NCBI RefSeq assembly: GCF_030406725.1
Contig: NZ_CP129107.1
Coordinates: 434,001 to 498,000, forward strand
Reading direction: 5' to 3'
From: Alteriqipengyuania flavescens
GTDB taxonomy: Bacteria > Pseudomonadota > Alphaproteobacteria > Sphingomonadales > Sphingomonadaceae
Length of the DNA stretch: 64,000 nt
The stretch's first letter is position 1. Every line of letters starts with the position of its first letter. The position numbers and the translations under genes are program-made. Of the stretch, positions 39,477 through 45,138 are shown in pieces. A model generated the notes under the pieces. The model had not been told where the DNA came from. It ran no database searches and saw only the letters and a program-made list of their open reading frames with translations.

Positions 39477-39848
39477 GGAAAACCGCCTTCCTAATCGATC
39501 GATTAAATCCGCTTCCCGCAGCGCCTAGTGAAGCAGGGGGCGCACGGTCAAGTCCCCGCGTGCATACGCGTGCGCGCGAAGTTTGCGTTGTCGCCTCTGC
39601 CGCCTGTGCATACGAAGGCACGGGAAATGGTGCGGGTATTGTGCGACTGCGAGACCGTTCCACCTGTAACCGGAATGTCACAGTCATGAACCGATGGCGG
39701 AAACCGCCTGCGAATCCTTTTGCGTGAAGGCAGGGCTGCGCTAGTCAGCGATGCATCCAACGCTCCCGTTCCGGCGGGTTTCGATATTTGGATGGTAAAA
39801 CTGCCGCCCTGCATGCTGCCGGGTGGCTGTCTTAGGGGACTAGCAAAC
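39477..39848. promoter_or_regulatory. divergent intergenic region between thiolase and TonB receptor
   Basis: This 372-base gap holds no gene I can support. It must contain the promoters of both flanking genes. ATCGATCGAT (39,493–39,502) lies near the thiolase start. GGGGA at 39,836–39,840 is the Shine–Dalgarno of the receptor. I cannot place -35 and -10 elements with confidence. Confidence 0.5.
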
Positions 39849-42800
39849 ATGCAGAATACCACTTTCCGCAAGGGTCTGCTGGCGTCGAGCTCGGCGCTGA
39901 AGGCTCTCGCACTGGTGGGTGCTGGTGTTGCCGCTTCGACCGGGGCCATCGCTCCGGCCGCAGCGCAGGACTACACCTCCGGTGCCATCGCCGGTACCGT
40001 CACCGACGAAACGGGTGCGCCCGTTGCCGGTGCGACCGTCGTCGCAACCTCGAACGCCACGGGCCAGACCCGTACCGCGACGACCGGCTCGAACGGTACT
40101 TTCCGCCTCAACGCCCTGCCGACCGGCTCGTACGACATCGTCGTCACCGGCGGCGGCTTCCAGGACTTCACCGCCACCGGCGTGAACGTGCTGGCTTCGC
40201 AGGCTGTCGGCGTGGACATCTCGGTGTCTTCGGCCAACGTCATCACCGTTATCGGCACCACCATCGTCCGCGACTTCGAAGGCACCACCCAGGGCCTCAA
40301 CGTCGACGTGGAAGAGCTGACCAAGCGCGTTCCGCTGCCGCGCGACCTGACTTCGGTCGTGCTGCTCGCACCGGGCACCACGCAGGGCGACAGCGCATTC
40401 GGCAACCTCGCCTCCATCGGCGGTTCGTCGGTCGCTGAAAACGCCTACTACGTGAACGGCCTCAACACGACGAACTTCGACAACTACCTCGGTTCGGCCC
40501 GCGTGCCGTTCGACTTCTACCGTTCGGTGGAAGCGAAGACCGGTGGTTACCCGGCCGAATTCGGTCGTGCGACCGGCGGTATCGTCAATGCCGTGACCAA
40601 GTCGGGCTCGAACGACTTCTTCGGCGGCATCCACCTCGACTGGGCGCCGAAGTTCGGTCGTACGGATGGTGAAGAGCTGATCACCTGTGAATATAATCAG
40701 GGTGAACTGCAGGCGCTGATCGACGATGTCGAGAACAACCTTTCCCCGCGTGGCACGATCATCAATCCGGCTTCGACCTGCGAAGACCTGACCAACCGCG
40801 ATGCCGACGAAGCCATGAGCTACTCGGCAGTCGTCGAGGCTGGCGGCCCGATCATCGAAGACCGCCTGTTCGTCTACGGCCTTCTCGAATTCCGCGAAAC
40901 GGAATCGAACACCGTCAGCCGCGCTTCGGGCCTTTCGACCCGCAACACGCAGGACGATCCGTTCTGGGGCGTGAAGGTCGATGCATACCCGATCGACAGC
41001 CAGCACTTCGAATTCACGATCTTCGACACCCGTCGTCAGACCGTGCAGTCGACTGCGCCCTATACCGAAGGTTCGGGCGACGAAGGTTTCAACATCGGCG
41101 ATTACCAGACCACCGGTGTGTTCAACTTCGGCGGCATCAGCTACGTCGGTAAGTACACCGGCACGTTCACGGACTGGCTGACCGTTTCGGCTGCCTACGG
41201 TGTGATGGAAGACCGTTTCGACAACGCACCGGTCGGTTCTGCTGCAACGCTTCCGTACGTCGTCAACGCGTCGGGCGTCACGGTCAATGGCACGCCCAAC
41301 GGTGGTCTGCTGAACGACCAGCGTGCCTCGTCGATCTCCACGCCGTACGAAACCAAGCGTGAATTCTATCGCGCTGACGTCGACCTGTTTTTCGACCTCC
41401 TCGGTTCGCACCACATCCGTGCCGGCTTTGATACCGAAATCAACACGCTGACCCGTGGTACGGTCCGTACCGGCGGTGACTACCTGCTCGGTAACGGCCT
41501 GCAGCACTTCGAATTCACGATCTTCGACACCCGTCGTCAGACCGTGCAGTCGACTGCGCCCTATACCGAAGGTTCGGGCGACGAAGGTTTCAACATCGGC
41601 GATTACCAGACCACCGGTGTGTTCAACTTCGGCGGCATCAGCTACGTCGGTAAGTACACCGGCACGTTCACGGACTGGCTGACCGTTTCGGCTGCCTACG
41701 GTGTGATGGAAGACCGTTTCGACAACGCACCGGTCGGTTCTGCTGCAACGCTTCCGTACGTCGTCAACGCGTCGGGCGTCACGGTCAATGGCACGCCCAA
41801 CGGTGGTCTGCTGAACGACCAGCGTGCCTCGTCGATCTCCACGCCGTACGAAACCAAGCGTGAATTCTATCGCGCTGACGTCGACCTGTTTTTCGACCTC
41901 CTCGGTTCGCACCACATCCGTGCCGGCTTTGATACCGAAATCAACACGCTGACCCGTGGTACGGTCCGTACCGGCGGTGACTACCTGCTCGGTAACGGCC
42001 TGATTTCGCAGGCTGCGTACGACGCAGGGGCCGGCGGTGCAGGTATCGCTTACGTCCTGCGTCCGGGTGGTATTGTCGAACTGAACTACTTCAACTCGGG
42101 TGGTGAGTTCGAATCGATCAACCGTGCGTTCTACATTCAGGACGAATGGAACGTGACCGATCGCCTGACGCTGAACCTTGGCTTGCGTCGTGACGACTTC
42201 CTGGTGAAGAAGGCCGATGGTACCGATTTCTTCGATCTCGATGAAAACTACGCTCCGCGCGTTGGCTTCAGCTACGATGTCGGGGACAACGGTCGCTTCT
42301 ACGGCTTCTTCGGCCAGTACTTCCTGCCGGTCGCTTCGAACACCGCGTTCCGAGGTGCCGGTGCGGAGTTCTTCTACCGCGAGCGGTTCGAATACACCGG
42401 CTTCAACAGCGACGGTGTGCCGCTGTTCGGTCGTGCCGATCAGGTTACCGACAACGGTCAGTACCAGAATGCTTGTCCGAGCCCGCTTACGCCGTTCTCC
42501 AGCGGTTCCAACTGCCTGACCACCGGTGATGGCTCCGTGCCGCCTTCGGTTGCGTTCGTCGGCCAGAACCTCAAGGCAACGAAGCAGTCCGAATACATCG
42601 TCGGCTACGACCATGACTTCGGCGGTTTCACGGTTGGTCTCGCCTACATCCATCGCAACCTCGACCGTACGGCGGAAGATGCTGCGATCGACCTGGCGGT
42701 CATCAACTACTGTAACGAAAACGGCATCACTGGTTGTGAAACCGTGTGGACCGGTTATCACCAGTACGTGACCTACAACGTGGGTGGTCCGCTGACTGTT

Positions 42801-43562
42801 GCCCTGCTGGGTGACGATACTGTGACCAGCGAAGCGCTTGACGGTCGTGTCGTGACCTTTACCGCTGACGAACTCGGCTTCGGTGAAGCGATCCGTGAAT
42901 ACGACGCGGTCGAACTGACGTTCGAACGCCCGTGGGATGGCAAGTGGAGCCTTACCGGTTCCTACACCTGGTCGCGCAGCTACGGTAACTCGGAAGGCTA
43001 CGTGCAGTCGGACTTCGGTCAGGACGATGCCGGCATTACGCAGGACTTCGACCAGCCGGGCTTCGTCGACTTCGCAACCGGCCGTCTGCCGAACGATCGT
43101 ACGCACCGCTTCAAGCTGTTCGGGGCCTATGCGCCGACGGAACAGTTCGTCGTTGGTACGAACATCTCGGTCGACTCGCCCCGTCCGCTCAGCTGCTTCG
43201 GCTGGCACCCGACGGACGTGTTTGCCGGCGGTTACGGCGCTGCGTCGCACTACTGCTCGTTCCAGCCTGCTCCCCGCGGTGAAGGCAGCGAAACCGACTG
43301 GCTCTACAACGTAGACATGTCGTTCCGCTACAACGTCGATGCGGGCCAGGATCGTCAGATCAGCTTCACGGCCGACGTGTTCAACATCTTCAACTTCCAG
43401 AACGCTACCTCGCGTAACGAATTTGGGGACCAAGACGCGATCTATCGTGGCGACAACACCGACGATCTGCCGGACGCCATCGTCGTCAACCCGAACTACG
43501 ACATCGTGACGGGCTACCAGGCTCCGCGCAGTGTCCGCTTCGGCATCGACATCCTGTTCTAA
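39849..43562 (+). CDS. TonB-dependent outer-membrane receptor, Oar-like, with internal duplication
   Basis: A 1,237-residue outer-membrane transporter driven by TonB. The signal peptide (1 to 40, ending APAAAQ) is followed by a carboxypeptidase-regulatory-like domain (about 45 to 125, SGAIAGTVTDETGAPVAGATVVA), the plug (about 150 to 260, with SSVAENAYYVNGLNTTNF and EFGRATGGIVNAVTKSG) and a long barrel ending in RSVRFGIDILF with the terminal Phe. Residues 385 to 551 are repeated exactly as 552 to 718; without the copy the protein would be about 1,070 residues, normal for the family. Codon choice is strongly biased to GGT, CGT and similar codons, as expected for an abundant protein. The ligand is unknown. 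Confidence 0.93.
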   Translation: MQNTTFRKGLLASSSALKALALVGAGVAASTGAIAPAAAQDYTSGAIAGTVTDETGAPVAGATVVATSNATGQTRTATTGSNGTFRLNALPTGSYDIVVTGGGFQDFTATGVNVLASQAVGVDISVSSANVITVIGTTIVRDFEGTTQGLNVDVEELTKRVPLPRDLTSVVLLAPGTTQGDSAFGNLASIGGSSVAENAYYVNGLNTTNFDNYLGSARVPFDFYRSVEAKTGGYPAEFGRATGGIVNAVTKSGSNDFFGGIHLDWAPKFGRTDGEELITCEYNQGELQALIDDVENNLSPRGTIINPASTCEDLTNRDADEAMSYSAVVEAGGPIIEDRLFVYGLLEFRETESNTVSRASGLSTRNTQDDPFWGVKVDAYPIDSQHFEFTIFDTRRQTVQSTAPYTEGSGDEGFNIGDYQTTGVFNFGGISYVGKYTGTFTDWLTVSAAYGVMEDRFDNAPVGSAATLPYVVNASGVTVNGTPNGGLLNDQRASSISTPYETKREFYRADVDLFFDLLGSHHIRAGFDTEINTLTRGTVRTGGDYLLGNGLQHFEFTIFDTRRQTVQSTAPYTEGSGDEGFNIGDYQTTGVFNFGGISYVGKYTGTFTDWLTVSAAYGVMEDRFDNAPVGSAATLPYVVNASGVTVNGTPNGGLLNDQRASSISTPYETKREFYRADVDLFFDLLGSHHIRAGFDTEINTLTRGTVRTGGDYLLGNGLISQAAYDAGAGGAGIAYVLRPGGIVELNYFNSGGEFESINRAFYIQDEWNVTDRLTLNLGLRRDDFLVKKADGTDFFDLDENYAPRVGFSYDVGDNGRFYGFFGQYFLPVASNTAFRGAGAEFFYRERFEYTGFNSDGVPLFGRADQVTDNGQYQNACPSPLTPFSSGSNCLTTGDGSVPPSVAFVGQNLKATKQSEYIVGYDHDFGGFTVGLAYIHRNLDRTAEDAAIDLAVINYCNENGITGCETVWTGYHQYVTYNVGGPLTVALLGDDTVTSEALDGRVVTFTADELGFGEAIREYDAVELTFERPWDGKWSLTGSYTWSRSYGNSEGYVQSDFGQDDAGITQDFDQPGFVDFATGRLPNDRTHRFKLFGAYAPTEQFVVGTNISVDSPRPLSCFGWHPTDVFAGGYGAASHYCSFQPAPRGEGSETDWLYNVDMSFRYNVDAGQDRQISFTADVFNIFNFQNATSRNEFGDQDAIYRGDNTDDLPDAIVVNPNYDIVTGYQAPRSVRFGIDILF
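41001..42002 (+). repeat. perfect 501-bp tandem duplication inside the TonB receptor gene
   Basis: Bases 41,001–41,501 are repeated without a single difference at 41,502–42,002. The unit is 501 bases, 167 codons, so the frame is kept. Copies run from QHFEFTIFDTRR to YLLGNGL in the protein. The junction joins GGCCTG directly to CAGCAC. An exact copy this long is either very recent or an assembly error. Confidence 0.95.
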
Positions 43563-43594
43563 TCGCAAGATCGGAACACGAACCGAAAACAGGG

Positions 43595-43626
43595 AGGGGC
43601 GGTCTTCGGACCGCCCCTTTCTTTTT
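43595..43626 (+). terminator. strong intrinsic terminator after the TonB receptor
   Basis: A 10-base perfect stem closed by a TTCG tetraloop (43,605–43,608), followed by TTTCTTTTT. It lies 32 bases after the receptor stop and fits an abundant, single-gene transcript. Confidence 0.9.
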
Positions 43627-43674
43627 GCGTAATCGATATGTGAAAGCAGGCGGCGGCGCCGCGCCGTAAATGCC

Positions 43675-45138
43675 TTACCCGGCGTAGGCTGCGCGGAATT
43701 CGTCGAGCAGGGGGCCGTAAGCCTCCGCCTGCCCCACACGGTCGGTCCGCATCGGTTCGCGCACCTGCATCGCGCTCGCCGTACGCACCACCCGCTCCTG
43801 CCGGTGGAATTGCGCCATCGCCGGGTCGTATGAAACGCCGGCATGCTCCGCGATCTTCGGAATCCAGGCGTCGGGCGCGCTAACCAGTTCCTCGTAGGGC
43901 ACCGTCATGATCCGCCCTGGGAACAGCTTCACCCAGTGGGCGAACAACCGGTCCTCCAGCGCGAAGACGCGGCCGATATCGGCCAGCGACCAGCTCCACG
44001 GCACACCGGCGGTGAAATAGGTGCGGAAGCACGACAGCGCCGTATCTTCCGGGCTCCGCCGCATCCACAGCACCCGCGCATCGGGCAGCGTGTGCAGCAG
44101 CAGCCCCATGCGCAGCGATTGCTGCAGTGTCTTGTCGACGATGCGCCCTTCCGGCCCGAAGCGTTCCGCCAGCAGCCCTTCGTATGTCCGCGCCAGCGTG
44201 CCCCACGGATCGGGATGATCGCCCATCGCCGCTTCGAACTCCTGCGCGCCGATCATGGTCTCGCCCGCCACCGGGATCAGCGCGGGGCGCAGCAGGTTGA
44301 TCTCGCCCCCGTCGGCGACCTCCGGGTGGGCGGTCAGGATCGTCTCGGTCAGCGTGCTGCCCGAACGCGGCAGGCCGTTGACGAATATCGCGCGGCTGCC
44401 CGAATGGCCAGAGGGACGCAGCCTCGCCATCCGCTCGGGCGTGAAGTCGGTCAGCGCCTGCGTCGCCTGCCGCTCCATCGCCTCGTAATCGAATGTCTCG
44501 GTGCCCCGGCGCAGGGCCGCGCCTTCGGAATAGGCTTCGAAGGCAGCACTGAAATCGCGGCAGTCGTGATAGGCCTTGCCCAGTGTATAGAGCAGCCGGC
44601 TGCGCAGCATCGGATCGGTGAGGCCCGGCGTGCTGCGCAGCTTTTCGAGCGAAGCGATGTCCGGGTCTCCCGGCGCGAATGTCCTGGTCATCGCCAGCGC
44701 CGACCAGCTTTCGATCATCGCCGGCTTCTGCGCCAGCGCGGCGCGGAAATACGCCGCGCCTTCCTCCGCTTTGCCCTCGCCCACAGCCTGCGTGCCGAGA
44801 AAGTGCTGCACCTGCGGGATCTGCCGGTGCTGTTCCGCCAGCCGGGCGACCTGCTCGCGCGCCTCGCGGCTGCGCCCGGTCTCGACCAGCTCGCCCCAGC
44901 CATAGAGCAGGCGGCTGAGCGTGGGCGGCGGCGTGGCGGCGAAACGGCGCGCAGCCTCGCGCTGGATTTCGACCGCGCCGATCTGCTTCGCGAGCCGTCC
45001 GATACTCTGCCACCGCTCGCCATGTGGCGGCCCGTCGCGCACCTCTTCGCGCAGGAGCGCGACCGCCGCATCGCGGTCGAGGCGCTTCAGCGCCTCCACG
45101 GCGGCGAGCACGCGGTTGGCAGGAGGTGGCGACGTCAC
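43675..45138 (-). CDS. TPR-containing sulfotransferase
   Basis: A 487-residue protein. The N-terminal half (about residues 10 to 235) is made of helical repeats that resemble TPRs. The C-terminal half is a sulfotransferase domain with the 5'-phosphosulfate loop IFVNGLPRSGSTLTETIL (251 to 268), using PAPS as donor, and a later 3'-phosphate-binding region near MRRSPEDTALSCFRTYF. This architecture resembles the tyrosylprotein-sulfotransferase-like Sulfotransfer_3 proteins common in sphingomonads. The acceptor is unknown. It lies 59 bases after clpB on the same strand. Confidence 0.86.
   Translation of the reverse strand: MTSPPPANRVLAAVEALKRLDRDAAVALLREEVRDGPPHGERWQSIGRLAKQIGAVEIQREAARRFAATPPPTLSRLLYGWGELVETGRSREAREQVARLAEQHRQIPQVQHFLGTQAVGEGKAEEGAAYFRAALAQKPAMIESWSALAMTRTFAPGDPDIASLEKLRSTPGLTDPMLRSRLLYTLGKAYHDCRDFSAAFEAYSEGAALRRGTETFDYEAMERQATQALTDFTPERMARLRPSGHSGSRAIFVNGLPRSGSTLTETILTAHPEVADGGEINLLRPALIPVAGETMIGAQEFEAAMGDHPDPWGTLARTYEGLLAERFGPEGRIVDKTLQQSLRMGLLLHTLPDARVLWMRRSPEDTALSCFRTYFTAGVPWSWSLADIGRVFALEDRLFAHWVKLFPGRIMTVPYEELVSAPDAWIPKIAEHAGVSYDPAMAQFHRQERVVRTASAMQVREPMRTDRVGQAEAYGPLLDEFRAAYAG

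Follow-up and report, generated by a model that had tools for sequence, protein, structure and literature searches.

A repeated segment in the recorded sequence of a receptor gene of Alteriqipengyuania flavescens

The recorded sequence of an outer-membrane receptor gene of A. flavescens contains the same 501 bases twice, which raises the question of whether this chromosome carries a barrel enlarged by duplication or whether the second copy exists in the sequence record alone. The gene lies in a 64-kb stretch of the genome (contig NZ_CP129107.1, positions 434,001 to 498,000), hereafter the window, and all positions below refer to the window unless stated otherwise. Copy 1 (41001-41501, plus strand) encodes predicted barrel strands 4-8 and the first part of the outer loop after them, and copy 2 (41502-42002, plus strand), which is 100% identical to it, follows directly in head-to-tail orientation. 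Identity at an offset of 501 starts at 41001 and continues for exactly 501 bases, with no extension on either side, and the genome record carries the same repeat at C1:475001-476002 in contig coordinates. The unit opens at the first position of a codon and its length is a multiple of 3, so the reading frame is kept. The first-pass annotation had described two identical 501-base copies placed end to end and in frame (41001-42002), and this was borne out.

Given its length and identity, the repeat cannot have arisen by chance. Within the 64-kb window no other exact direct repeat reaches 40 bp, and 464 kb of the genome, consisting of 20 spread stretches and the window and corresponding to 17% of the genome, contains no other exact tandem repeat with a unit longer than 34 bp. 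One of these stretches (L050, genome 270001-290000) contains an exact tandem repeat with a 34-bp unit and an identity run of 96 bp at genome position 271702, and a separate direct repeat of 85 bp at an offset of 94 at genome position 286293.

The gene encodes an Oar-like TonB-dependent receptor

The open reading frame extends from 39720 to 43562 on the plus strand, and comparison with relatives indicates the Met codon at 39849 as the likely start. The resulting gene (39849..43562, plus strand) encodes 1,237 aa as recorded and 1,070 aa with one copy of the unit, the second copy adding 167 residues within the barrel region. The product generated hits on CarboxypepD_reg (PF13620) at its N-terminus (72.4 bits; cut-off 32.3) and on the barrel domain OMP_b-brl_4 (PF25183; 91.2 bits), and the orthologue at locus L002 also matched PF00593 (36.1 bits against a cut-off of 27). 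At the level of domain composition, a CarboxypepD_reg domain combined with an outer-membrane barrel is the architecture of Oar-like TonB-dependent receptors; the order of the two domains is that of Oar of the Myxococcus xanthus kind, to which the receptor is likened on this basis. A sequence-profile search for a solved structure of the receptor found none, and Foldseek searches with the low-confidence model of the L002 orthologue retrieved TonB-dependent receptors from PDB, with FpvA as the best match (E 1.3e-15). The receptor is co-linear with sphingomonad homologues, and differs from other Oar-like receptors in its 167 extra residues, which here repeat strands 4-8 exactly. Domain content and homologue alignment agree with the earlier description of an Oar-like receptor that would normally measure ~1,070 aa and has 167 additional residues in its barrel region.

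The receptor gene is flanked on one side by genes for an acetyl-CoA acetyltransferase, an SDR and an enoyl-CoA hydratase, and on the other by genes for a sulfotransferase-domain protein and ClpB; this neighbourhood is partly conserved in L002, L003 and other loci. The sulfotransferase-domain gene (PF13469; 43675-45138, minus strand) is located directly 3' of the receptor gene. At 12 of 25 loci (L003, L022, L024-L026, L029, L030, L033, L035, L036, L038 and L039) a homologue of this gene adjoins a homologous receptor gene, in either orientation and always on the 3' side, and this constant placement suggests a functional pairing with the receptor. An antisense open frame of 1,334 aa (39840-43844, minus strand) spans the entire receptor gene including the repeat, and probably arises from G+C-rich codon usage.

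The 25 homologues compared carry one copy of the unit

Some match to the receptor was found in 131 of the 199 genomes of the family, and among the best homologues the open frames measure ~1,010-1,170 aa. The copy number of the unit was counted by six-frame alignment of 25 homologues, which are 36-61% identical to the receptor over nearly its whole length. The region corresponding to the unit comprised 143-175 residues in all 25, versus 334 in the record, showing that each homologue has one copy; separate alignment of L002 and L003 likewise showed a single copy. This comparison with the closest homologues, which the first-pass annotation had put forward as a check, speaks against barrel expansion, the second copy being present in 0 of 25. 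The homologue loci contained no internal exact repeat longer than 20 bp other than a masked N run in L006, searches of plasmid and viral contigs gave no match, and a literature search for such receptor duplications returned nothing usable. Absence from other species is compatible with a recent event in A. flavescens, and as the nearest relatives are only ~61% identical, the age of a duplication can be bracketed only loosely.

Junction and contig coordinate of the repeat

The identity run of exactly 501 bases means that there is no microhomology at the junction between the copies. Among random joins in the receptor gene, 49% had 0 bp of microhomology. In Salmonella cultures, verified duplications had a deduced cut-off of at least 11 bp of microhomology (PMC3411829), a figure that overstates the rule somewhat because the design of that study filtered out short-homology joins. 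The repeat thus resembles spontaneous bacterial tandem duplications in its head-to-tail arrangement and differs from them in its junction, where those described carry long microhomology (PMC3411829); junction microhomology, which is usual but not obligatory for real tandem duplications, is absent here.

In contig coordinates the first base of the unit is 475,001 (475,000 in 0-based numbering), and its length of 501 is also near a round size. For a random breakpoint the odds of such a round start are ~1 in 1,000, which become less impressive once other kinds of roundness are allowed for, and the argument is post hoc and so carries limited weight. Both ends of contig C1 (L016 and L017) lie inside phage-tail-like genes. 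Because the contig starts within such a gene it seems to be unrotated, and raw coordinates may be preserved; the chromosome seems to have been opened inside a prophage-like or gene-transfer-agent-like region, without rotation to a standard origin. The genome consists of a single contig, with completeness rated at 100% and contamination at 0.04%.

Duplications introduced during assembly or polishing occur in sequenced genomes. The repeat is like these in being exact, ~500 bases long, at a round coordinate and without homology at the join, and unlike them in being isolated, with no second case in the 17% of the genome analysed. The 464 kb covers ~15 other multiples of 25 kb and yielded no further repeat of this kind, and short tandem repeats were not enriched at multiples of 500. 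Neither result gave a sign of a systematic chunking fault; a single isolated artefact is possible despite the lack of a second case. A literature search on 500-base chunk artefacts returned nothing usable.

Predicted strand composition of the unit

The AlphaFold2 model of the L002 orthologue had a mean pLDDT of 46, with barrel strands mostly at 55-82. In this low-confidence model the unit corresponds to strands 4, 5, 6, 7 and 8 and extends into the outer loop that follows, the assignment of predicted strands as membrane-crossing being our own reading. The repeat would add five strands to a receptor barrel with a norm of 22, a count that is uncertain in low-confidence models. Since five is odd, a literal duplication would reverse all later strands unless one strand stays out, and the repeated block would begin outside with a strand that natively begins at the periplasm. 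In the AlphaFold2 model of the recorded two-copy protein, ~230 residues (roughly residues 296-525 of the modelled fragment) had no confident structure, with pLDDT of 20-28. Both models are weak (mean pLDDT 46 and 40), the two-copy model too weak to locate the second copy, and were used only as support.

Origin of the second copy

The second copy is probably an artefact of assembly, polishing or sequence handling. The start at 475,001, the length of 501 and the zero-homology junction favour this reading, which is also supported by the single copy in 25 of 25 homologues and by the odd number of strands in the weak model. Against it stand the kept frame, which an artefact would show by chance one time in three, the good assembly metrics and the absence of a second event in 464 kb. 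A chunk of ~500 bases would have been written twice during assembly, polishing or another handling step of the contig, and the round coordinate would stem from processing in chunks of fixed size or from an edit made later; the living chromosome would lack the second copy, and the gene would be an ordinary one for an Oar-like TonB-dependent receptor with one copy of the unit. Assembly error was among the options named in the first-pass annotation, a caution that was well placed; both the contig coordinate and the junction speak for an artefact.

A real duplication of any kind is on the unlikely side and, if present, is probably damaging or looped out. One such origin, a very recent tandem duplication in the sequenced culture, perhaps unfixed and formed by replication slippage, end joining or unequal sister exchange, is itself rather doubtful: exact identity is in line with recency, the preserved frame is what selection would demand and the assembly metrics are good, but the unit starts at a round contig coordinate and the junction has zero microhomology, against at least 11 bp in verified cases (PMC3411829). 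After such an event the 167 residues would be looped out or receptor assembly would fail, and recombination between the copies would easily remove one of them. Very improbable is a real duplication that yields a working enlarged receptor, in which four of the five repeated strands would form two extra hairpins, giving 26 strands, or the block would form a new surface domain, with altered binding of substrate or phage. The kept frame without a stop codon and a unit that runs from a turn on the periplasmic side to within an outer loop would suit this outcome, and a barrel of 26 strands is known in LptD, which belongs to a different family. However, the unit has five strands rather than four, AlphaFold2 did not build the additional copy into the barrel (weak evidence), none of the 25 homologues has a second copy, and the copies show zero divergence. 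The odd strand number (five in the orthologue model), the homologue comparison and the evidence for an artefact thus weigh against the earlier proposal of a working barrel with extra strands. Hardly credible is an older duplication held identical through gene conversion, which is compatible with perfect identity, whereas no relative has the duplication even in diverged form.

Implications

If the second copy is an artefact, as we favour, the recorded protein probably exceeds its true length by 167 residues, and the case would serve as a warning that exact repeats at round contig coordinates need read checks before interpretation. If the duplication is real, it would offer a direct view of outer-membrane barrel growth through duplication of a block of strands. 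Were it both real and working, a freshly duplicated five-strand block, which would either raise the barrel above 22 strands or form a new surface domain, would have been caught at its origin.
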